Shown piece after piece: positions 1,905 to 44,914 of a DNA stretch of 64,000 nt. The stretch is from Shouchella miscanthi (GTDB lineage Bacteria; Bacillota; Bacilli; Bacillales; Bacillaceae_D), in NCBI RefSeq assembly GCF_007725405.1, contig NZ_CP042163.1:2728001-2792000 (forward strand). The letters are read 5' to 3'. The notes below the pieces were generated by a model, which saw only the letters and a program-made list of their open reading frames with translations, was not told the origin of the DNA and made no database searches. A program made the position numbers and the translations under genes. The stretch's first letter is position 1. Each line of letters begins with the position of its first letter.

Positions 1905-2966
1905 TTGTTCTTTAAAATAAGAACGGTTGTATTCAATTCGGCTATCATCCGGAAGAAACGTTGCTGCCTGTTCATTGTGCTCGTTTGCTTTTTCTGTAAA
2001 CCCAAGCTTGTCGTAACATACCGCTAGTTGAAGATTTGGAATCCATGTTTCGCATGCGACATTTTGGAAGTAAGCATTTTCTTCTTTATTACGTATCGCC
2101 ATTTCATACCAGAATACCGCCTCTGAAAATGCTTGCTTCTCCATAAAGGAGTGACCAATACGGCAGCACGTTTCTGGTTTTGGTTTTCCGTATTCTAATG
2201 CTCGAAATGTCCAATCTTTTGCTACTTTCGGCAAGCCTAGGTTTATATAGCAATCAGCTAATTTGTTACAAGAACGAATGAGGTCTTCTGACCAACCTTT
2301 ATCCGTTTTAATGAATTTCAAATAATACTCAACAGCATCTTCAAACCGACGATGATCTGTTAACTCATTCGCGTAATAAAGCAAGTCTCTTGGAGTAAAC
2401 GCTTCCCCTGACGCTTTCATCCCTTCATAAATATCAAGGTTGCGTGTTAAATCGTGGCCATCATCAGCCGATAAGTGGGTTACAGCAATATCACTATGAT
2501 GCAATTCTCCGTATACTTCTAAATATTCGTGAACCGCTCCGTGCCAGACAAAGCCACGTTCTTTCTTTACGATTCGAAATCGTCTGATACTCGATGTCAC
2601 CCCTCCATTCCCATCAAAAGCTAAATGATAATCCATTGATACAGCATCAACCTTTTCTTCCAGGGTAGACTTTAGTAATTTAAGCTTTTGACGGTCCTCT
2701 TCCTTTAAAATATCATCCGCATCTAGCCACATGACATACGGTTTCGTTGCATAAGAGAACGCTTTGTTTCGTGCTTTAGCGAAGTGATTTACCCAAGTAA
2801 AGTCATACACTTTATCTGTAAACGAAGTAGCAATCTCTTTTGTCCGATCAGTAGAACCTGTATCTAGAATAATAATCTCATCTACTACCTCTTTCACGCT
2901 GGACAAGCAGCGCTCTAACACGGCTTCTTCGTTTTTCACAATTAAGCATAAACTGATTTCAATCAT
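1878..2966 (-). CDS. GT2 glycosyltransferase with TPR-like C-terminus
   Basis: Predicted cytoplasmic glycosyltransferase, 362 aa. The N-terminal GT2 domain opens with the family signature SLCLIVKNEE, then DTGSTD (35-40) and the metal-binding LDADD (81-85). The C-terminal half (about 190-320) is helical with TPR-like pairs, a layout known from peptide or protein glycosyltransferases of Bacilli. The ATG at 2966 is chosen because GGAGGTG lies 6 nt upstream; the GTG 15 nt earlier would place that site inside the gene. A sigma-K-like promoter is upstream, so expression during spore-coat formation is likely. Substrate unknown. Confidence 0.85.
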   Translation of the reverse strand: MIEISLCLIVKNEEAVLERCLSSVKEVVDEIIILDTGSTDRTKEIATSFTDKVYDFTWVNHFAKARNKAFSYATKPYVMWLDADDILKEEDRQKLKLLKSTLEEKVDAVSMDYHLAFDGNGGVTSSIRRFRIVKKERGFVWHGAVHEYLEVYGELHHSDIAVTHLSADDGHDLTRNLDIYEGMKASGEAFTPRDLLYYANELTDHRRFEDAVEYYLKFIKTDKGWSEDLIRSCNKLADCYINLGLPKVAKDWTFRALEYGKPKPETCCRIGHSFMEKQAFSEAVFWYEMAIRNKEENAYFQNVACETWIPNLQLAVCYDKLGFTEKANEHNEQAATFLPDDSRIEYNRSYFKEQLQLLKQND

Positions 2967-2985
2967 CCGAAACACCTCCACAGCC

Positions 2986-3013
2986 CATTTTATGTGTCAG
3001 CATGCTGGGATGT
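2986..3013 (-). promoter_or_regulatory. Sigma-K-like promoter before the TPR glycosyltransferase
   Basis: On the minus strand, GGCAC (AC at 3013-3012), a 17-nt spacer, then CATAAAATG (2994-2986). The sigma-K consensus is AC-N16/17-CATANNNTA; only the last base differs. Confidence 0.5.
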
Positions 3014-3078
3014 GCCTGTATACACATAGGATAAAGATAGCTTTCTACTGTCTACCTTAAGTCTAGATTCTTCGATTG

Positions 3079-5125: not shown

Positions 5126-6070
5126 GCGATAATACCGAATAGTGTCTTTTAGCCCATCTGTTAAGGAAACAGATGCCTGATAGTGAAGTATCTTTTCCAT
5201 CTTTTCCGTACAAGGTACGCGCTTCCTCATATCTTCAAAGCCACTCTTATAAACCTGTTTATATGGTATAAACTGGATATCTGATTGGCTATTTGTGAGC
5301 TGAATAATCGACTGTGCAAGTTGTAAAATGGATATTTCCGTGGAAGACCCAATATTAATCACTTCACCATTGCAATGATGGCCAACTGTTCGACTCGTCG
5401 CTTCCACTGTATCTTTCACATACGTGAAGCACCTTGTTTGCTTACCATCGCCATGAACAGAAAGGGGCTCATTTCGTAAAGCAGCTGAAATGAAAATTGG
5501 AATGACCCCTCCATACAAACCCGACTTTGCCCTCGGTCCATACGCATTAAAATAGCGTAAAATTGTCACCGGCAATCCTTTCTTTGCAGCGGCCAAAAAC
5601 ATGTGCTCTTCTAACGCTTTAACTGTCGCATAGCACCAGCGATGGGTACTCGTTGCTCCCACTAACCGATCACCATCTTCTTTATAGGGCAAGTTCTCAC
5701 TTTTTCCGTATACTTCAGAAGTGGATGCAAAAACGACTTTCGTCTTGGAGTTGACTGCTTTCTTCAACACGACTTGCGCAGGGATTAAGTTTCCTGCAAT
5801 AATTTCATCTGGTTCCTCTACACAACGGCGAACACTAAGTGAAGCAGCTAAATGAAACACGACATCAGCCCAGTTAATCCAGCGCTCGGATACATCAGCA
5901 TCTTCTACCCGACTTTTAATAAAAAAGAACCGTTTTGAGCGAACGAATTCTTCCACTAGACGTGTATCTTCCACTTGATCCATGACGCATACCGTGTGCC
6001 CTTCCTGAAGTAGCTTTTCTGTTAAGTGAGAACCAATAAACCCCAGTCCCCCTGTCACCAATATGTTCAT
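5114..6070 (-). CDS. NAD-dependent nucleotide-sugar epimerase/dehydratase
   Basis: Extended short-chain dehydrogenase of 318 aa, the usual length for UDP-sugar 4-epimerases and related decarboxylases. The Rossmann signature GGLGFIGS is at 7-14, FASTSEVYG at 115-122 (catalytic Ser/Thr), the Tyr-x3-Lys pair at Y147 and K151, and RYFNAYGPR at 172-180. It lies 9 bp after the nucleotide-sugar dehydrogenase gene, so the two form an operon and probably act in sequence on one UDP-sugar, oxidation at C6 followed by epimerisation. AGGAGGAG precedes the start. The exact substrate cannot be read. Confidence 0.88.
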   Translation of the reverse strand: MNILVTGGLGFIGSHLTEKLLQEGHTVCVMDQVEDTRLVEEFVRSKRFFFIKSRVEDADVSERWINWADVVFHLAASLSVRRCVEEPDEIIAGNLIPAQVVLKKAVNSKTKVVFASTSEVYGKSENLPYKEDGDRLVGATSTHRWCYATVKALEEHMFLAAAKKGLPVTILRYFNAYGPRAKSGLYGGVIPIFISAALRNEPLSVHGDGKQTRCFTYVKDTVEATSRTVGHHCNGEVINIGSSTEISILQLAQSIIQLTNSQSDIQFIPYKQVYKSGFEDMRKRVPCTEKMEKILHYQASVSLTDGLKDTIRYYRLFL

Positions 6071-6079
6071 ACGCTCCTC

Positions 6080-7333
6080 CTATAACTTGTGAATATGCGG
6101 ACCTTCGACGCTCAAACATTGTTTTGTATCAAAAATGCATTTACTGTGCTGTACAACCTTGTCATAATCAAGATCATCATGATCGGTCAGTAAAACAACA
6201 AGATCAAAGACAGCCAACGTATCTTCTGCGATCGTAATAGATTGATACGCTTGATCGCACAAGGTGTAAACCGGTACAAAAGGATCGTGGTAAGCAATAG
6301 TAAAGCCTGCTTGAATGAGTCGCTCCGCCACTCCTATCGATTTAGACTCTCTCGTATCCCTAGTATTCTTTTTGTAAGAAAGCCCAATTAATAAAATGGC
6401 AGCCTCTTCCACCGAATGAATGAGGGACCGTATTCGCTTGACAATATAATCCGGCTGCTCATCATTAACCGCTTTAGCTAGATCAATAAACCGTGTTGTC
6501 GCTCCAACTTGATTAACCTTCCATTTAAAATAAAGAGGATCAACTGGTATACAGTGCCCCCCTACACCTGGTCCAGGACGATATGCTGAAGATCCATATG
6601 GCTTCGTTTCAGCAGCGAGTAAGACTTCTTCAACGTTAATCTCTAATTCGTAACAGGCACGCGCCATTTCATTCACAAACGATAGATTAATAAAACGCTG
6701 GGTGTTTTCAAACATCTTCACCGCTTCTGCCACTCTTGTTGAACTGACAGGCACGAGCTCTTTAAATATGGTTTCATAAACATCTTTCACTCTCTGTAAA
6801 CATTCCGAAGTCATGCCACTTATTACTTTTGGAACATCGGTTAAATGGAATTGCTTATTCCCTGGGTCGATTCGTTCTGGTGAATAGCCAACAAAAAACG
6901 TTTTTCCGATAAGAAATCCTTCTCTTTCAATAAGAGGCACAACGATTTCTTCTGTTGTTCCTGGAAACGTAGAACTTTCCAATATAAGAAGCTGACCTTG
7001 TTGCAAGTGTGGTGCTAATTGTTTTAAAGCGGTTTGCACATAGCATAAATTGGGAGTCCCGGTACTAGCTAATGGTGTAGGGACACACAAAATAATAACC
7101 GTCGCTTGTTTTGCTTCTTCACACTGGTCTGTTACTGTGAACGATTCGTTCATCAACGCCTCAATCGCTTTATCGTCCACTTCGTTTATATACGAGCGGT
7201 GTCGATGTAAGTCATGTACCTTCCCTTGATCTTGATCAATGCCAATGACACGGTGCCCTCTACGACTACATTCAATGGCTAAAGGCAGCCCAACGTATCC
7301 TAAGCCAACAATGGCTATATTCTGTTTCTTCAT
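6080..7333 (-). CDS. UDP-sugar 6-dehydrogenase (UDP-GlcNAc/ManNAc type)
   Basis: A 417-aa enzyme of the UDP-glucose/GDP-mannose dehydrogenase family that oxidises the C6 alcohol of a UDP-sugar to a uronic acid with two NAD+. GLGYVG at 10-15 binds NAD; GVGGHCIPVDP carries the catalytic Cys (about 261). SPERIDPG favours the UDP-N-acetylhexosamine branch (WecC/WbpA-like) over UDP-glucose. The ATG at 7333 is preferred to a TTG at 7342 because GAGAGG is 10 nt from the ATG but touches the TTG. First gene of the pair with the epimerase. It would supply a uronate donor to the local glycosyltransferases. Confidence 0.88.
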   Translation of the reverse strand: MKKQNIAIVGLGYVGLPLAIECSRRGHRVIGIDQDQGKVHDLHRHRSYINEVDDKAIEALMNESFTVTDQCEEAKQATVIILCVPTPLASTGTPNLCYVQTALKQLAPHLQQGQLLILESSTFPGTTEEIVVPLIEREGFLIGKTFFVGYSPERIDPGNKQFHLTDVPKVISGMTSECLQRVKDVYETIFKELVPVSSTRVAEAVKMFENTQRFINLSFVNEMARACYELEINVEEVLLAAETKPYGSSAYRPGPGVGGHCIPVDPLYFKWKVNQVGATTRFIDLAKAVNDEQPDYIVKRIRSLIHSVEEAAILLIGLSYKKNTRDTRESKSIGVAERLIQAGFTIAYHDPFVPVYTLCDQAYQSITIAEDTLAVFDLVVLLTDHDDLDYDKVVQHSKCIFDTKQCLSVEGPHIHKL

Positions 7334-34836: not shown

Positions 34837-34887
34837 GTTATACTAATATGATAAGTGAATCGCCTAGGGCATGAAAGGAGTGGTGAC

Positions 34888-37347
34888 ATGAGGCTCATTG
34901 TTAGCCATACTAATCTTGATTTTGACGGGCTCGCCTCGTTAGTAGCTGCGCATAAATTCGATCCTAAAGCCGTTTTAGCGCTCCCACCTAGTCTAGGAGA
35001 GCGAGTAAAACAATTTTTACATTTTTACAGCGATTCCTTTGATTGGTACACGTATAAACAGATTGACTGGAGTAACGTCAGTGCTATTACGTATGTCGAT
35101 TGCTCCACAGATGAGCGAGCGGGCGTTGCCTCTTTTTTAGTTAATAATGAAATCGAGCGTTCTTATATTGACCACCACCAATCAGAAGCTACTGGTGCAA
35201 ATATTACATTATTACTCCAACCAATTATTCATCAAGGAATCGCCGTATCCCCTATAGAAGCTACGTTATTCGGCTTAGGCTTATATAGCGATACAAATCG
35301 ACTTACAAATGATACTGTTACGATTGCCGACATGAAAGCGGCGGTCTTTTTACATGAAAATGGTATGGATTTAACGGTTATACGGGAGTTTTTACAAGCA
35401 CATGCCGGCGAACACCCTTTGTTCAAGACACTTTTTAATGCGGTCGATATTCAGACGATTGCAGAAAAACGAATTGTTTTTTCAACTTGTATAGCCGATC
35501 AGTATATCGCCGATATCGCAACGGTAGTAGAAGAAATTCACAGCCTGTATGCACCAGATGCAACCATTGTTCTTTGCCAACTGCACCATCACACGTATAT
35601 GATTGCACGCGCTACGAGTGCAGACATTCCCATTCAAATTCTTGCGCAACAGTTAGGTGGAAATGGGCATGATTATGCAGCTTCTGCCATTTGTCGAAAC
35701 GAGCCACTCGCTAAAGCCTATGCAACCGTACGCCATTTGCTCACAGCGTGCATCCAAGTTAAAACCCCTATCCGTTCTATTATGCACTGGCCAGTTCAAA
35801 CTTTTTTTGCTTCCTCTACTGTAGCGGAAGTATTTCATGAAAGTAACCACTTACCGTATAAGGGATTTCCTGTTGTGAATGATAGGAAGCAGGTTATAGG
35901 AATGCTAACAGCAGCAAAGCTTAAAAAGGCGATTGATTTAAACCAAGGCACTGAATTAGTAGCATCAATCATGTCTAAAAAAGTTCTTACATTAAAGGCA
36001 ACCGATTCAATTGAACAAGGAAAAAAAGTAATGATGGAAAACGAAATTGGTCGCATCCCCATTTGCCAGAGCGATGGAACATTAGAAGGAATCATTACTC
36101 GCAGTTCGATCATTACGAGTCCATTTGAACATCCGCCTCATTACAGCGATAGCGAACTCACTCGCTACTTCGGGGAGAAACGCTTTACCTTTTTGCGGAA
36201 AATTGGAGAGCTTGCTGATGCACAAGATGTGCAAGTATACATCGTTGGCGGTATTGTGCGTGATTTTATTTTAAACCGTCTTTCAAAGGATATTGATTTG
36301 GTTGTAGAAGGAGATGCGATTTCGTTTGCACGTACCCTCGCCAATCAATTTGGAGGAGAGGTACAACAACACGATCATTTCTTGACTGCCACGTGGATCA
36401 TTCATAGCGTTTCCATTGATCTTGTAACAGCAAGAAGGGAACACTATCGCACACCCGGTGCTCTGCCAGACGTTCAAGCAGCTAGCATAAAGGATGATTT
36501 AGCTCGCCGTGACTTTGCAATAAATGCGATTGCCGTTTCGCTTAACGCGTCCTGCTTTGGTGAAATATTGGATCCGTTTCAAGGTCGTCAACAGATTCAA
36601 GCAAAAACCGTTTCCATTTTGCATCCATTAAGTTTTATTGAAGACCCGACACGCTTGTTTCGAGCACTTCGCTTTGCAAAAAGACTAGGCTTCCAATTAG
36701 GCGACGAAACAAAAAAACAGGCAAAGATAATGGGACATGCTATCCAGACTATTAGCAAGCAACGTCTTTATCATGAGTTGGAGCTCAGTCATAGAGAAGA
36801 TCAGCTTCCTTGGTTGTTTAAAGCACTTAATGAATATCACGTTTGGAAAATCTTCTTTGGTGCAAACATGAGTGAAAATGCGTATAAACACATTCAACAC
36901 TTGTTTCGTGAAGGTGTTAACGAATCCATTTTTTTGGCTATTGCCGCCATTGCTTACGAGCAACATTCGTTAGAGTCCCTGCACGCATTCGCATTAACCA
37001 AGTTAACTAAAAAGCTTTTAACCGATATCCAACTTATTGAAGACTATCAAGACGAAACCTCTCTCGACAACTTACATGGCTCACTTTTTTCAGTAAAGGA
37101 CGCCGCCATTTTCTTTTTTATTACCCTACCAAATAAAGAGAATTCGATGCTGTCACAGTATCGGAATGCACGAGAGATGCTAACACCTCTCGTTACTGGA
37201 AGAGATTTAATTGCACTAGGGTTTAAGCCGAGTCCACTCTTCTCAACATGGCTTTTAGACATTGAAAAACGACAGTTAACTGGAGAAATAAAAACGAAAG
37301 CAGATGCGCTAGCATGGGTAAGCAAAAAAAACAAGCATGAGAGCTAA
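34888..37347 (+). CDS. DHH-CBS-nucleotidyltransferase fusion (tRNA CCA/A-adding or poly(A) polymerase class)
   Basis: An 819-aa protein of three parts. DHH/DHHA1 phosphoesterase: HTNLDFDG (7-14), VDCS (70-73), DHH (95-97), GGNGHDYAAS (257-266). Two CBS repeats, about 295-350 and 358-412, which may sense adenylates. Class II nucleotidyltransferase: VGGIVRDF (453-460), catalytic Asp pair D468 and D470 (KDIDLVVEGD), RRDFAINA (540-547) and RALRFAKRLGF. The last adds nucleotides to RNA 3' ends; the DHH part may remove them or cleave signalling nucleotides. ATG 34888 has AAAGGAG upstream. Which tRNA step it performs cannot be told; species with split CC- and A-adding enzymes exist. Confidence 0.88.
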   Translation: MRLIVSHTNLDFDGLASLVAAHKFDPKAVLALPPSLGERVKQFLHFYSDSFDWYTYKQIDWSNVSAITYVDCSTDERAGVASFLVNNEIERSYIDHHQSEATGANITLLLQPIIHQGIAVSPIEATLFGLGLYSDTNRLTNDTVTIADMKAAVFLHENGMDLTVIREFLQAHAGEHPLFKTLFNAVDIQTIAEKRIVFSTCIADQYIADIATVVEEIHSLYAPDATIVLCQLHHHTYMIARATSADIPIQILAQQLGGNGHDYAASAICRNEPLAKAYATVRHLLTACIQVKTPIRSIMHWPVQTFFASSTVAEVFHESNHLPYKGFPVVNDRKQVIGMLTAAKLKKAIDLNQGTELVASIMSKKVLTLKATDSIEQGKKVMMENEIGRIPICQSDGTLEGIITRSSIITSPFEHPPHYSDSELTRYFGEKRFTFLRKIGELADAQDVQVYIVGGIVRDFILNRLSKDIDLVVEGDAISFARTLANQFGGEVQQHDHFLTATWIIHSVSIDLVTARREHYRTPGALPDVQAASIKDDLARRDFAINAIAVSLNASCFGEILDPFQGRQQIQAKTVSILHPLSFIEDPTRLFRALRFAKRLGFQLGDETKKQAKIMGHAIQTISKQRLYHELELSHREDQLPWLFKALNEYHVWKIFFGANMSENAYKHIQHLFREGVNESIFLAIAAIAYEQHSLESLHAFALTKLTKKLLTDIQLIEDYQDETSLDNLHGSLFSVKDAAIFFFITLPNKENSMLSQYRNAREMLTPLVTGRDLIALGFKPSPLFSTWLLDIEKRQLTGEIKTKADALAWVSKKNKHES

Positions 37348-39699: not shown

Positions 39700-40011
39700 T
39701 TAAACGTCATTTAGCCCTTTTAACAGCGCCTCAAACCATTTATCCAAATCTGTTTTCATCTTCTCTTCCGCTTCATTTGCAGCCGTTTGCTGTTTTATTT
39801 TTTCATACGAAGACATAAAAGGTTCGATTTGACCTGTTTTAAATTGAGCGACTGCATAATAATAGAAGATTTGAATTGGTAAGTGATCCGCTTGCTCTAA
39901 CATGCCAATAAATGGCGCCATCGTCTCTAGTCCTTTATCATACTCACCTTTCTTTATGTATGAAATCCCTTCCTGAACCGGCTTCATAAAGCGCTGCAAT
40001 GGCTGTGTCAT
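39700..40011 (-). CDS. Small TPR-like protein coupled to comZ
   Basis: A 103-aa helical protein with a pattern like one to two TPR repeats (GEYDKGLETMAPFIGMLEQA and FYYYAVAQFKTGQIEPFMSS). Its start overlaps the comZ stop as ATGA. B. subtilis has a small gene (yjzB) at this place, but I cannot show relation. Function unknown. Confidence 0.7.
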   Translation of the reverse strand: MTQPLQRFMKPVQEGISYIKKGEYDKGLETMAPFIGMLEQADHLPIQIFYYYAVAQFKTGQIEPFMSSYEKIKQQTAANEAEEKMKTDLDKWFEALLKGLNDV

Positions 40012-40341: not shown

Positions 40342-41946
40342 ATGAACGGAACATTAACAGATAAAATTAATTCAAGACGCACATTTGCGATTATTTCTCA
40401 CCCAGATGCAGGAAAAACAACGCTTACGGAAAAACTATTGCTTTTTGGTGGTGCGATTCGTGAAGCTGGAACTGTAAAAGGAAGAAAGAACGCGAAACAT
40501 GCAACAAGTGATTGGATGGAAATAGAAAAGCAACGTGGGATATCTGTAACAAGCTCTGTACTTGAATTTTTGTACAACGGCTACCATGTCAATATTTTGG
40601 ATACACCAGGACACGAAGACTTTTCAGAAGATACGTATCGGACTTTAACTGCTGCTGATTCAGCAACCATGTTAATTGATGCCGCTAAAGGAGTAGAAGC
40701 CCAAACAAAGAAATTGTTTAAAGTGTGTAAGCTTCGCGGTATCCCCATTTTTACGTTTATTAATAAATTGGACCGACAAGGTAGAGACCCGTTTGAACTA
40801 ATGGAAGAACTTGAAAATCTGCTAGGAATTCGATCTTTTCCAATGGGATGGCCAATTGGGATGGGCCAGTCATTCAAAGCCGTTTACGATCGTGTAAATA
40901 AACGTTTAGAACTCTACAACCCAAACAACCCGAAGGATATTGATATTATTAGCGTCACTGGTCCAGATGATCCGAAAATTGACGAAGTTGTTAAAGACGA
41001 AGGGCTTGTACAGCAATTTCGTGAAGAGTTAGAGCTTCTTGACGTAGCTGGTGATGAGTACGATTTAGAGCGAATTAACAATGGCGAGCTCACACCTATT
41101 TTCTTCGGATCCGCTATTTCTAGTTTTGGAGTACAGACTTTTCTTGAACACTTCTTAAGCTTATCACCTGCGCCTAGCCCGCGCGATAGTTCTATTGGAA
41201 CGATCGATCCGATGGAACGCGAACAATTCTCTGGCTTTATATTTAAAGTACAAGCGAATATGAATGCCAAACACCGTGATCGGGTAGCGTTTTTACGGAT
41301 AACGTCAGGTACATTTAAGCGAGGCATGTCTGTTAAGCATGTCCGAACGAATAAACCATTGAAACTTGCACAGCCTACACAATTTTTGGCGCAAAGTCGG
41401 AGCATTGTAGACGAGGCGTATGCGGGTGATATTATTGGCTTATTTGACCCAGGGCATTTCCGGATTGGCGACACATTGGTTGAAGGCGATTCATTTGAAT
41501 TTAGCGAGATGCCACACTTTTCACCTGAGCATTTTTCAGCTATCACAGTAAAAGAAGCGCTTAAGCATAAATCGTATGAAAAAGGGCTACAGCAGCTGAC
41601 AGAAGAAGGGGCTATCCAGCTCTTTCGTACGTATAATAAATACGTTGAACAACAAATTGTTGGCGTTGTTGGCGTTCTTCAGTTTGAAGTGCTCGAACAT
41701 CGATTGAAAAGCGAATATCATGTAGATATTCAAATGAGCCGTCAGCCATTTTCTTTTGCACGTTGGATTGATGGTGATGAAAAAGAGTTGAGCGTATTTA
41801 AAGAAAAACAGCGAAATTTAGTTACAGATCGTGAAGATCGTATCGTTGCTTTATTTGAAAATGAATTTCAAATGCGGACAGCGCAGGAAAAATACCCTAA
41901 CCTACAGTTTTATGAAAACTCGTTTTATAAGAAAACCGTTGAATAA
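40342..41946 (+). CDS. prfC: Peptide chain release factor 3
   Basis: RF3 GTPase (534 aa) that recycles RF1/RF2 after peptide release and helps post-error quality control. G1 SHPDAGKTTLTEK (19-31), DTPGHEDFSEDTYR (G3), NKLDRQGRDPFEL (G4). ATG 40342 is used: GAGG lies 6 nt before it; earlier in-frame TTG and ATG codons overlap the site. Absent from B. subtilis as far as I recall. Confidence 0.95.
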   Translation: MNGTLTDKINSRRTFAIISHPDAGKTTLTEKLLLFGGAIREAGTVKGRKNAKHATSDWMEIEKQRGISVTSSVLEFLYNGYHVNILDTPGHEDFSEDTYRTLTAADSATMLIDAAKGVEAQTKKLFKVCKLRGIPIFTFINKLDRQGRDPFELMEELENLLGIRSFPMGWPIGMGQSFKAVYDRVNKRLELYNPNNPKDIDIISVTGPDDPKIDEVVKDEGLVQQFREELELLDVAGDEYDLERINNGELTPIFFGSAISSFGVQTFLEHFLSLSPAPSPRDSSIGTIDPMEREQFSGFIFKVQANMNAKHRDRVAFLRITSGTFKRGMSVKHVRTNKPLKLAQPTQFLAQSRSIVDEAYAGDIIGLFDPGHFRIGDTLVEGDSFEFSEMPHFSPEHFSAITVKEALKHKSYEKGLQQLTEEGAIQLFRTYNKYVEQQIVGVVGVLQFEVLEHRLKSEYHVDIQMSRQPFSFARWIDGDEKELSVFKEKQRNLVTDREDRIVALFENEFQMRTAQEKYPNLQFYENSFYKKTVE

Positions 41947-41974
41947 AAAAACCAGCCAAATGGCTGGTTTTTTT
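41945..41974. terminator. Terminator between prfC and the STAS gene
   Basis: AAACCAGCCA with complementary TGGCTGGTTT, A run left and T run right, overlapping the last codon of the converging STAS gene. Confidence 0.88.
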
Positions 41975-42716
41975 ACATATGCTTACGAATCATTTCAGCT
42001 AAACTACCGTTAAATTGAGTTCGTTTCTGAATATCATTTCCGTGTAATAGCTGTGCATGTTCTGGTCTTAAACCGATAACTCGTGTTTCAATTCCCATGA
42101 TTTGTAGAGCTTGGACTAAACGTAGCAACTCTCTCATCCCTAGGTTAGTGATGTTACCAACACCACTAAAGTCGAAGAAAAGATAGTCATAATCGGCTTG
42201 ATACACATTTTTTGAGATGACTCCCTGATTTTGCTTAATTAAATGTTCATCTAAGTCACCAAAAAACGGTACAAATGCAAGCTCAGCTGATATGGCAATA
42301 AACGGAGCTGAAAGTTGTTTAATCATACTTAAAGATTCTTCAAGCTCTTCTTTTTTCTCAAGCAGTTCAAAGTCTGTCTGTGCCAAGCGTCTGCTTTGCT
42401 TTTGAACCTTTTCAATCAGCTCTGTTAAGTTTCCATCTTGTTTAATACAAATAATATGGAAACGCTCTTCGTCCCAATTTGCAAACAATGTATGCAGTAC
42501 ATAAGGAGCTTCTATTGTATCCATATTTAATTCGATCTTCCCGTTTTCTTGTTTAGAAAGAAAGCGGGTTACTTTATCCACACTTCCTATATCTAAAAGA
42601 TCGATAAACGAATCAGCTAGTTTAAACGCTTGTTTAGCTACAGTGGATCGATTCAAAATTCGATACGTTTCGTCTAACTCAAAATAGGGAACTGGTAAAC
42701 GATTAATTGCGGACAT
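41973..42716 (-). CDS. RsbR-like PAS/STAS-domain signalling protein
   Basis: A 247-aa protein: PAS-like N-terminal domain (about 8-95), coiled coil (about 100-135) and C-terminal STAS domain (about 137-247). FDFSGVGNITNLG (181-193) and GLRPEHAQ (215-222) match the stressosome RsbR family. The usual second phospho-Thr after PEHAQ is Leu here; Thr190 lies one place from the first. ATG 42716 follows AGGGGTGAG by 5 nt. It overlaps the cobalamin-binding gene by 14 bp, so translation is coupled and the products are likely partners. No RsbS, RsbT or RsbU gene is near. Confidence 0.82.
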   Translation of the reverse strand: MSAINRLPVPYFELDETYRILNRSTVAKQAFKLADSFIDLLDIGSVDKVTRFLSKQENGKIELNMDTIEAPYVLHTLFANWDEERFHIICIKQDGNLTELIEKVQKQSRRLAQTDFELLEKKEELEESLSMIKQLSAPFIAISAELAFVPFFGDLDEHLIKQNQGVISKNVYQADYDYLFFDFSGVGNITNLGMRELLRLVQALQIMGIETRVIGLRPEHAQLLHGNDIQKRTQFNGSLAEMIRKHM

Positions 42717-43362
42717 CCGCACTCACCCCTAATTGTCTTTCCTGCCATTTAGCTAGTTCTGTTAAGTTTCCAATTAATACGGTCTGATTATTACAGAGCG
42801 GACTTAAGTCGTACATTGAGACAAGTCGTCCACCAATTACAATCGTTGGTTTATGGGGTAATTTTTCTAACGTATCAACATACAAATTCAAACTACGGGC
42901 GTGATAGGGAATAGACACTGAAATGGCAATGGCATCGGGCTGCCATTTCTTCGCCATCATCTCCGCTTGCTCGAGGGGGACACTTGCTCCTAATAGACGT
43001 GTCGTCCAGCCAAGCTCTTCCAATAAACAGGCGCACATTTTGATGCCTAGATCATGTTGCTCTTGATCTAAACATAGAAACATGACGCTTTTACCGTTTT
43101 TAGGCGCTCGCCATTTTCGTATATAATAGTGATAGCGTGTCAATACAAAATCGCACGTTGACGTAGCTAAGTGCTCATCAGCAATTGTAATTCGATTCTG
43201 TTCCCATAGCCATCCAGTATGAACCATTGCTTTCGTTAATAATTTTTCATATATCCAAATACTATCATACCCAGCATCAGAAAGGCGACGGACACAATTC
43301 CAAGCACGATCTTCATCTCCATCAAGCAAGGCGTCTACTAACACTTCCCATGACTGCTCCAT
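42703..43362 (-). CDS. Cobalamin-binding photosensor-like protein without DNA-binding domain
   Basis: A 219-aa protein. Residues 1-85 match the helical cap domain of B12 photoreceptors, with the exact W-x9-EH signature (W53, E63, H64) that in CarH/LitR contacts the upper face of adenosylcobalamin. Residues 90-219 are the Rossmann B12-binding domain with ExHxxG (E101, H103, G106), H103 as likely lower axial ligand, then SVSIPYHA and IVIGGRL. There is no MerR HTH. Output probably passes to the overlapping RsbR-like protein. Binding of cobalamin is well supported by motifs; light sensing is inference. Confidence 0.85.
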   Translation of the reverse strand: MEQSWEVLVDALLDGDEDRAWNCVRRLSDAGYDSIWIYEKLLTKAMVHTGWLWEQNRITIADEHLATSTCDFVLTRYHYYIRKWRAPKNGKSVMFLCLDQEQHDLGIKMCACLLEELGWTTRLLGASVPLEQAEMMAKKWQPDAIAISVSIPYHARSLNLYVDTLEKLPHKPTIVIGGRLVSMYDLSPLCNNQTVLIGNLTELAKWQERQLGVSADVRN

Positions 43363-43463
43363 TAAACGTTCCGCCTCCTCCCAACCATTGTCCTTATTTA
43401 CCTAGTTTAAGAGTAAAGGTTTTGTCCTACGAACGCAAGTACGAACAGCTGCTGGAAAACCAG

Positions 43464-44132
43464 TTATTTTAAGTCATTTTGTCGGATCCACTTTTTTTCT
43501 GCCTCCTTGTATGCTCTGCGCCCCTCATCAAGAGACCATTTTGGCGAAAAAGGGAGAAAGTCCTCATTTTCTTCGTCACTTCCAATTACCGAATACGTCC
43601 CATTCTCTTTTTCAATAGCAGCATACACATAATCCACTAAATCGTTAATGTAAAGCAAATCCCGATTGCCTTGATTTATTTGTTCATCAATATACGAAAA
43701 CGATAGATTGCTGTGTAATCCGTACGCTTGTGGACTACGCAAAATAATAAGAGAGAATGGTGTGGAAGATGCCAATGCCTTTATCTCTTCTTCCATTGTG
43801 GTGCGCGTTTCCCCTTTTCTTGTTGTTGATAGATAAAGCAGACGATCATGCTGATGTAAGCCAGAAGCAAATGCGAGTACTTCTTCTTTCTTTTCATTAT
43901 CTGCGACGTACACATAAGTAGCATTCTCGCTTAACGGTCTAAACTCGTTTACGTTTTTATGGATAAACGTAAAGTGTGCATTCCTCCCCATACTCATTTC
44001 AATCATTTGTTTTTCCTGTGTCTTTTCTACCATGTGGTCAACAGCGACCACTTCCCAACCTTCATCAAGAAATTTCGCGCACACATGACTCCCAATAAAA
44101 CCCAAACCACCAATAACCGTTAGTTGATTCAT
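43464..44132 (-). CDS. NAD-dependent epimerase/dehydratase-like protein
   Basis: A 222-aa Rossmann protein with GGLGFIGSH at 8-16, shorter than classical sugar epimerases. The Tyr-x3-Lys pair is not evident (YLSTTRKGETR occupies the strand), so it may bind a dinucleotide without acting on sugar. ILRSPQAYGLHS and YINDLVDYVYAAI are family-like. May correspond to B. subtilis yjaV by position; unproved. Lies 32 bp from the hydrolase-like gene in the same direction. Confidence 0.75.
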   Translation of the reverse strand: MNQLTVIGGLGFIGSHVCAKFLDEGWEVVAVDHMVEKTQEKQMIEMSMGRNAHFTFIHKNVNEFRPLSENATYVYVADNEKKEEVLAFASGLHQHDRLLYLSTTRKGETRTTMEEEIKALASSTPFSLIILRSPQAYGLHSNLSFSYIDEQINQGNRDLLYINDLVDYVYAAIEKENGTYSVIGSDEENEDFLPFSPKWSLDEGRRAYKEAEKKWIRQNDLK

Positions 44133-44164: not shown

Positions 44165-44821
44165 TTACGTTGCTGAGATAAAGGTTTGATAAAAGCCACT
44201 TAGCTCGTTCGCCAACGTGCGAGTTCTAGATAAATTCACTTTCGTTGACTCTTCTGCGCTGTCTCTTTTCACATTCTGTAAAAACGACTGGACTGGTAAA
44301 TGGTAGGCTGTAAATAGTTTTTTATCCAAATTTGCTACTATCTTTCTATCACAATGCTTTAACCCATATTGTCTACTCATTTCTTTTTTAAATCGTTTTA
44401 ACGTGACCTCGTCATCTTGGTAATGAAGAAAACAGTCTTCTAAGGACAAGAGTGGATTAATAAAGGCTGCAGCTCGTATATGAATGTCATCTGAGCAACA
44501 TAACTGCTGCGCTATAAGCGCCCCTGTTCCTTCCGCACATAAGAATATTTTTTCGTTAATGGTTTCTTGACGCAATAAAAGCTGAATTAAATGTTCAGCA
44601 TGCTTTACCGCTTTTTTTGAACCCCATTCAGCAATTAAGAGCCCTGAAGAAAATACGGTATACCCTTTTTTTACAAATGGATCAATAAAGTGCTCAGCAT
44701 GACCTGAATGGAGGGTTTGATAATCAAGTAACATAAATATGGCATAGCCGTTAGGCTTCTCCGGAATACAATAGCTATTTTTACAGCCATTTAAGTCAAT
44801 GTAGCGGACATAAACAGGCAT
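44165..44821 (-). CDS. Alpha/beta-hydrolase-like protein with altered nucleophile elbow
   Basis: A 218-aa protein with an alpha/beta-hydrolase pattern: YAIFMLLDYQTLHSGHAEHF, then FLCAEGTGALIAQQL at the nucleophile elbow. In active enzymes the elbow reads G-x-S-x-G; here it is A-E-G-T-G, so Ser is replaced by Glu or the elbow is degenerate. A Ser-independent or non-catalytic role is possible. ATG 44821 has AGGAGA 10 nt upstream, against only 1 nt for the ATG at 44830. B. subtilis has yjaU near this place. Confidence 0.65.
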   Translation of the reverse strand: MPVYVRYIDLNGCKNSYCIPEKPNGYAIFMLLDYQTLHSGHAEHFIDPFVKKGYTVFSSGLLIAEWGSKKAVKHAEHLIQLLLRQETINEKIFLCAEGTGALIAQQLCCSDDIHIRAAAFINPLLSLEDCFLHYQDDEVTLKRFKKEMSRQYGLKHCDRKIVANLDKKLFTAYHLPVQSFLQNVKRDSAEESTKVNLSRTRTLANELSGFYQTFISAT

Positions 44822-44914
44822 AGTGTCCATCTCTCCTGAACGATATAGATTCGTAATAGCTTATGTTTTTCCAGCAAAAAGTGAAAGCAAATTAGAAAAG
44901 AAATTCATCAATCC

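Follow-up and report, generated by a model that had tools for sequence, protein, structure and literature searches.

What does a B12-binding protein that lacks a DNA-binding domain sense, and to what does it report, when its gene runs into that of a STAS-domain protein? This question is raised by a locus in a stretch of 64,000 nucleotides (the window; C1:2728001-2792000) of the Shouchella miscanthi genome, which is a single contig of 4.25 Mb. On its reverse strand, the gene for a B12-binding photosensor-like protein of 219 amino acids (42703..43362; the sensor), characterized by Pfam, profile comparison and an 80-locus alignment, precedes the gene for a PAS-linker-STAS protein of 247 amino acids counted from its ATG (41973..42716; the partner), characterized from its open reading frame (ORF), a Pfam STAS match and a predicted model. 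An initial annotation described these as a two-gene unit in which a CarH-like cobalamin photosensor feeds a stressosome-like pathway. The pair is real, but a bilin-type globin and a haem monooxygenase also belong to the system, which is real, widespread and coherent; the annotation had covered its receptor and output half. Fused photocobilins have already been described, and our best reading is that the components of a photocobilin are encoded here as separate proteins, with PAS-linked outputs that can be exchanged. On balance, we favour the entire scheme in which the two genes encode the receptor and output half of such a split photocobilin and act on the stressosome.

The sensor matches the Pfam families B12-binding_2 (51.2 bits; cut-off 23) and B12-binding (44.6 bits; cut-off 32.1), with a four-helix cap at residues 7-74 and a Rossmann B12 domain at residues 93-182. 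The same search found no DNA-binding or helix-turn-helix domain, and a plain CarH-like transcription factor was dropped as a candidate for this reason. Sequence and Pfam bear out the annotated W-x9-EH signature (W53, E63 and H64), the ExHxxG motif with H103 (E101-x-H103-x-x-G106) and the lack of a MerR domain. Relatives were collected by a pattern-based scan of a collection with one genome per species (84,980 species), which found 307 stretches; the best 80 loci were analysed, a few of which share one genome (for example L082 and L137). In all 80 loci, W53, E63, H64, E101, H103, G106, P129 and R179 are invariant, and the motif is not due to chance. The sensor is 94% identical to its orthologue in S. 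oshimensis and 73% identical to that in S. xiaoxiensis. The genome encodes two B12-binding_2 domains at E<=0.001, one in the sensor and the other in a 1152-codon frame that we take to be methionine synthase.

The kinship with CarH that had been proposed for the sensor needs revision. When a profile of 14 sensor sequences was compared with solved structures, the best match was the photocobilin SasPcob (8j2w/8j2x; 1.2e-26), followed by 8jbs, a 'putative cobalamin binding protein' (1.2e-20). CarH (4.8e-11) ranks below some metabolic corrinoid proteins, AerR reaches 1.4e-7, and the NCBIfam CarH model gives 45.9 bits against a cut-off of 400. By profile comparison, the sensor is closer to photocobilins than to CarH. 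CarH and LitR share with it the B12 cap, the W-x9-EH signature and the lower axial His, but they carry a MerR domain and a His after the Trp, both of which the sensor lacks. At this next position (54), 71 of the 80 loci have E, six have Q and three have L, and none has His. The His next to the Trp is presumably the upper ligand of CarH after light, and the presence of Glu rather than His after W53 makes a CarH-type bis-His light state unlikely. In SasPcob, Trp61, Glu71-His72 and His108 are described as holding adenosylcobalamin (AdoCbl), and light yields a water/hydroxide ligand and monomers, unlike the bis-His state of CarH (PMC10979010, Nat Commun 2024). By analogy, a water/hydroxide light state would be expected for the window's sensor.

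The initial annotation had suggested a genome survey for conserved pairing of the two genes, and such a survey finds the pair kept in every locus. A PAS partner follows the sensor gene in 80 of 80 loci when sought with a hidden Markov model (HMM), and its STAS domain is present in 73. A simple rule finds an ORF directly 3' of the sensor in 75 loci, of which 67 overlap the sensor gene (using the first possible start) and eight are separated from it by 3-16 bp. The remaining five also have a partner, four with over-extended ORF starts and one (L138) recovered via the HMM; in L086, the partner is split over two frames. In the window, the partner's ATG start gives the 14-bp overlap with the sensor gene that had been annotated, whereas an alternative GTG start at 42722 would give 249 amino acids.

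Pairing was also assessed in 398 evenly sampled genomes of Bacilli. The sensor is matched at E<=1e-20 in 38 of these, and removal of one with a fused globin-B12 protein (G265) leaves 37. A PAS partner adjoins a sensor copy in 35 of the 37, with a STAS domain in 25 and without one in 10; multi-copy genomes (G093, G223 and G242) were counted once each, as STAS-type. Genomes G242 (L159, L222 and L226) and G093 (L155, L223 and L224) each hold three sensor copies, one with a PAS-STAS partner, one with a PAS-kinase and one with a monooxygenase-globin pair and no PAS partner, and each of the two genomes has one globin match; a further genome with three copies is G223. A contig labelled Chryseobacterium sp. 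ISL-80 (L101) bears a Bacillaceae-type operon, and its label or assembly is probably wrong.

The partner, encoded on the reverse strand, consists of a PAS-type N-terminal domain (residues 1-94; 42435..42716), a helical linker that runs into an LSAP motif (residues 95-135; 42312..42434) and a YtvA/RsbR-like STAS domain (residues 136-247; 41976..42311). Both annotated domains are present, the STAS domain being seen by Pfam and in the predicted model and the PAS domain in the model only. This model, built with 44 sequences, has a mean predicted local distance difference test (pLDDT) score of 76 and a predicted template modelling (pTM) score of 0.48; its PAS-type domain is modelled well and its linker poorly (pLDDT under 50). 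Since the model is only moderate, no mechanism is read from its geometry. Foldseek ranks full-length YtvA first (2.7e-12), followed by SpoIIAA, RsbS, the Listeria stressosome and LOV/PAS domains. YtvA and RsbR are also the best sequence relatives, and YtvA is the best NCBIfam match (61.9 bits; cut-off 250). The motifs FDFSGVGNITN and GLRPEHAQ, whose resemblance to RsbR had been pointed out, are present and align with it.

YtvA is described as an RsbR paralogue whose effect depends on RsbRA (PMC8508746), and the partner shares the PAS-linker-STAS architecture of these proteins. Unlike YtvA, which has a LOV cysteine, the partner sequence has no NCRFLQ-type LOV cysteine motif, and its input would come from a second protein. 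A LOV-type partner was dropped as a candidate because the photoactive Cys is not in the protein.

Two further genes recur with the pair. Within the at most 6 kb fetched on each side, a globin of ~120 amino acids lies near the sensor in 57 of 80 loci and an ABM-domain gene in 56. The ABM, globin and sensor genes are contiguous on one strand in 48 loci by rule, and in L091, L106, L120 and L130 by coordinates; L114, L133, L135 and L146 carry the ABM-globin pair on the opposite strand, and L138 the globin alone. A profile of 24 globins finds phycocyanin alpha (1.4e-4) and SasPcob (3.1e-4) as its best solved matches. In a Foldseek search with the globin model (pLDDT 93), phycobiliproteins, the photocobilin and smURFP lead with a probability of 1.00 and haemoglobins come further down, although the E-values are weak (best 0.037); the Pfam Phycobilisome model on the globin of the window's own genome gives 0.053, under its cut-off. 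In SasPcob, Asp270 is reported to hold the bilin and Trp296 to touch both bilin and corrin (PMC10979010). All 57 globins have D and W in the corresponding columns, and the column of the phycocyanin Cys, which is Thr in SasPcob, is Cys in 53 and Thr in four.

The best solved match to a profile of 16 ABM proteins is 8avh, a monooxygenase that degrades haem (1.4e-8); a hypothetical protein, IsdI, IsdG and HmoB come next. Residue H75 is invariant and W65 occurs in at least 90% of these 16 sequences, and the two presumably match the IsdG spacing. These profile matches suggest that the set encodes a likely pigment maker, the ABM protein, and a likely pigment holder, the globin.

The window's genome carries overlapping ABM and globin genes at C1:1882.5-1883.2 kb (L148:8460-9174). 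A ytvA gene encoding the LOV motif NCRFLQ and a STAS domain lies 2.4 kb upstream of them (L148:5220-6017), making two light systems close neighbours in this genome, together at C1 about 1.879-1.883 Mb. Among 41 genomes of the family, the sensor (E<=1e-37) occurs in 14 and the globin in 15; all 14 are shared, 26 genomes have neither gene, and in the fifteenth globin genome (G026) the globin is broken. Sensor and globin are located apart in 11 of the 14 genomes that have both. The ABM gene adjoins the globin gene in all 15 globin genomes, in pieces in G026.

Across the 398 Bacilli genomes, a separate globin is found in 34 of 37 sensor genomes, and the sensor in 34 of 35 separate-globin genomes, the exception being G136, where the globin is broken; the 22 fused-globin genomes and the broken G136 were left out of the separate-globin count. 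Fisher tests give 4e-10 for co-occurrence in the 41 family genomes and 1e-44 in the 398 Bacilli, values that overstate the evidence because the genomes are related. The 22 fused-globin genomes belong to one family, presumably Paenibacillaceae, in which the globin match lies inside frames of 357-391 codons. In the nine loci that were read (L255-L262 and L228), globin and B12 domain occupy one frame with the globin first; a frame with a histidine-kinase H-box comes next on the same strand in all nine, and an ABM gene lies upstream in two. Together, fusion in relatives, operon linkage and co-inheritance of unlinked genes make contact between globin and sensor likely.

The module of G136 (L227) is broken, with a PAS relic at 5938-6534, globin fragments and no sensor found, and lies near an rsbS-rsbT pair. 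In another Shouchella (G009; L235), a frame that matches STAS at 65 bits (1941-3032) adjoins the monooxygenase-globin pair.

To what does the partner report? The annotation's proposal that a B12 sensor feeds a stressosome-like STAS protein holds for the pairing and for the tie of the STAS form to RsbT given below, but STAS is only one of several outputs. In L225, L226 and L224 (the last 84% identical to L226), HisKA-HATPase comes after the PAS domain, and in L177 a sub-threshold HATPase match does. In L021, L022, L023, L088, L114, L129, L133, L135 and L146, a degenerate DHp-like end replaces STAS. When this short form is compared with the kinase form, 199 columns align at a probability of 99.8%, to which the shared PAS domain contributes much. 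The aligned region includes the second DHp helix (LIEIGK region), and the end of the short form thus looks like a kinase stump. Because the same PAS domain precedes STAS, kinase and stump, we regard it as the constant part and the output as exchangeable. A man-made YtvA-kinase swap, YF1, has been described (PMC10949197), and it mirrors the natural swap of STAS and kinase among these partners. In L021-L023, the neighbouring gene is a convergently oriented histidine kinase gene that is cut off where the locus ends.

Several observations weigh against parts of the scheme, and these are considered here together with the alternative explanations that they favour. The sensor could act alone with AdoCbl as a photosensor for green and blue light, the globin-monooxygenase pair having another job and the stressosome output being kept. 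Consistent with this, the ABM-globin pair lies ~0.89 Mb from the sensor in the window's genome, six Shouchella loci (L004-L007, L067 and L068) have no globin beside the sensor, and three of the 37 sensor genomes (G042, G165 and G189) have none at all. However, sensor and globin are jointly present or absent in 40 of 41 family genomes, even when apart, and a globin-B12 fusion exists in another Bacilli family, so a sensor that works without the globin seems unlikely. As for the pigment itself, the phycocyanin-Cys column is Thr in the globin of the window's genome, and none of the 57 globins has a Cys at the place of the RGMC Cys of the BBAG-2 globins. Overall, we consider the bilin part of the system probable. 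It could also be that the sensor reports corrinoid level or ligand state, or redox or oxygen state, rather than light, to the stressosome. The fold is also that of metabolic corrinoid proteins, the supply of AdoCbl could vary given the adenosyltransferase encoded in the genome, and one of the motifs GxxW, EH, GxxH and GxxxP that SignatureFinder links to light-responsive B12 domains (PMC11796333) is missing. The window's sensor has GxxW, EH and GxxxP, but residue 100, at the first position of GxxH, is Q, whereas it is G in 27 of the 80 loci. Against such a role, W-x9-EH and ExH, common to photocobilins and CarH, are invariant in the 80 loci, and a bilin-type globin would have no obvious use in sensing B12 levels. 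The adenosyltransferase is present in 40 of 41 family genomes, that of the window included, and its distribution does not track the sensor, so that this test is uninformative. Sensing of cobalamin or redox state instead of light appears improbable, and we hold sensing of light and B12 to be likely.

The output half has to be weighed against the possibility that the STAS domain acts elsewhere, for example on an RsbW/SpoIIAB-type anti-sigma factor or in a two-component system. Against the output half in general, the Pfam match of the STAS domain is barely above the cut-off (23.4 versus 22.6 bits), the Pfam search finds no PAS domain in the partner, and two of the 37 sensor genomes (G030 and G168) have no adjoining partner gene. 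In favour of another target, the STAS domain has SpoIIAA structures among its best matches, and in relatives a histidine kinase or degenerate kinase takes the place of STAS. The RsbR phosphosites are also not conserved. T171, which we take to be the number of one phosphosite of RsbRA, falls in a column that holds N in the window's partner and Thr in seven of the 73 STAS partners; the column before it holds T in the window's partner and in 31 of the 73, the alignment register being uncertain by one. The column of T205, a described phosphosite of RsbRA (PMC8508746), holds L in the window's partner and Thr in two of the 73. Because these Thr positions are not kept, control of RsbT by textbook phosphorylation of the partner is doubtful. 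However, the ytvA product of the same genome likewise lacks Thr at the T171 column, where it has Ala, and YtvA and RsbR are the closest relatives of the partner, YtvA by structure as well. In addition, RsbT (E<=1e-20), found in 134 of the 398 genomes overall, is present in 25 of 25 STAS-type genomes and in one of 10 non-STAS genomes (G392, where RsbT is present yet the partner is non-STAS). Fisher's test gives 1.4e-7, but seven of the nine RsbT-less non-STAS genomes are from one family (f22), so that independent switches are few. The module lies ~6 kb from an extra rsbS-rsbT pair in G295 (rsbT by search, rsbS by eye), 4.7 kb before the sigB operon in G428 (named by eye) and beside an rsbR paralogue in G030 (STAS by search, name by eye). 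An rsbR-S-T-U-V-W-sigB-rsbX operon, assigned by eye with its STAS members found by search, is present in the window's genome. The RsbT tie, these neighbourhoods and the operon favour the stressosome as the output here, and an output of the partner elsewhere is accordingly rated unlikely. A stressosome output of the module is probable in our judgement, and the co-occurrence of STAS outputs with RsbT makes a light input to the stressosome and sigma-B likely in this organism. Contacts of SasPcob with STAS, SpoIIE and PP2C proteins have been predicted by its authors (PMC10979010).

How might a split photocobilin of this kind operate? From sequence comparison we infer its cofactors, light response, contacts and direction of effect. 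The sensor would bind AdoCbl in base-off/His-on form via H103, while W53 stacks against the adenosyl group and E63-H64 hold this group across a dimer. Green or blue light, and red light too if bilin is present, would break the Co-C bond and alter the dimer state of the sensor without forming a bis-His adduct. The separate globin would dock on the B12 domain like the globin of a fused photocobilin and broaden the colour range, and the IsdG/HmoA-like haem monooxygenase could make its pigment. The altered sensor would then contact the PAS-type domain of the partner, which would pass the signal via the helical linker to a STAS domain inserted in the RsbR-RsbS-RsbT stressosome, and the release of RsbT would change sigma-B activity. 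As a more tentative proposal, to which we give slightly less than even weight, many Bacilli may possess a two-colour photoreceptor for B12 and a haem-derived bilin, made of separate proteins with a self-made pigment and joined by a PAS adaptor to the signalling core of the host, be it the sigma-B stressosome or a kinase, either a histidine kinase or a degenerate one. The Shouchella receptor would stand beside YtvA, and blue, green and red light would all reach the stressosome.

This arrangement resembles several known systems in part. With the photocobilins SasPcob and AbDPcob, the sensor shares its B12 domain with W-x9-EH and ExH, and the globin the counterparts of Asp270 and Trp296. Photocobilins join globin and B12 domain in one chain, whereas here the genes are separate and the 219-residue sensor holds the B12 domains only; also unlike photocobilins, the relatives often have monooxygenase and PAS-output genes in the same operon. 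The BBAG-2 globins are reported to cluster with B12-binding proteins and to bind biliverdin (PMC10151467, PNAS 2023). They likewise are separate from the B12-binding protein within one cluster, and 56 of the 57 globins studied here share a G-M motif with them. Their three-gene clusters, as described, contain a bilin reductase and in some cases a haem oxygenase, in place of which we find an IsdG/HmoA-like gene and a PAS-STAS output (PMC10151467). In Rhodobacter, the stand-alone B12 protein AerR is described as modulating the PAS protein CrtJ by contact, with a modelled complex (PMC9144470). A stand-alone B12 protein thus again accompanies a PAS protein, but CrtJ binds DNA, and no globin or STAS domain is mentioned in the abstract and section of that source covered here (PMC9144470).

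The main text of the photocobilin report does not mention Bacillus, Rsb proteins or the stressosome (PMC10979010), and that of the BBAG-2 report mentions neither Bacillus nor Firmicutes (PMC10151467). The part of the SignatureFinder report covered here includes no stressosome output among the outputs it lists for light-responsive B12 domains (PMC11796333). Among the titles and abstract openings searched, none reports the pair or its operon from Bacilli; that search did not extend to the work on photoglobins by Schneider et al. (2022).

If the scheme is correct, the stressosome has a second, non-flavin light input that is testable in laboratory-culturable Bacillaceae, and bilin photobiology close to the phycobiliprotein family occurs in common Bacilli. 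PAS-STAS proteins of many genomes would gain both a partner and a signal. The module would also be a candidate for red-light effects on sigma-B in the organisms that bear it; for B. subtilis, activation of sigma-B by red light has been reported (PMC3019169). Finally, a modular split photoreceptor with naturally swapped outputs would be useful for optogenetics.

The remaining features of the locus concern expression of the pair and its neighbours. A Shine-Dalgarno-like sequence, GGGAGGAGG, precedes the sensor ATG on the reverse strand (43374..43382) and looks strong when read by eye. A palindrome resembling a bidirectional intrinsic terminator (CCAGCC-AAAT-GGCTGG with A/T runs; 41945..41974), also read by eye and absent from the output of the consensus scan, lies between prfC and the partner gene and is common to both. 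Between window positions 40000 and 46000, no cobalamin riboswitch or other known RNA was matched at Rfam gathering scores, and a promoter scan gave one sigma-70-like site, on the opposite strand, against a shuffle mean of 3.8, and thus no promoter evidence. Elsewhere in the window, an ORF of 830 amino acids (34855-37347) appears by eye, with no search made, to combine DHH, CBS and tRNA nucleotidyltransferase-like parts. The SDR (43464-44132) and hydrolase (44165-44830) genes adjoin the pair in Shouchella loci; they were excluded from the module because other genes replace them in most of the listed loci outside Shouchella.

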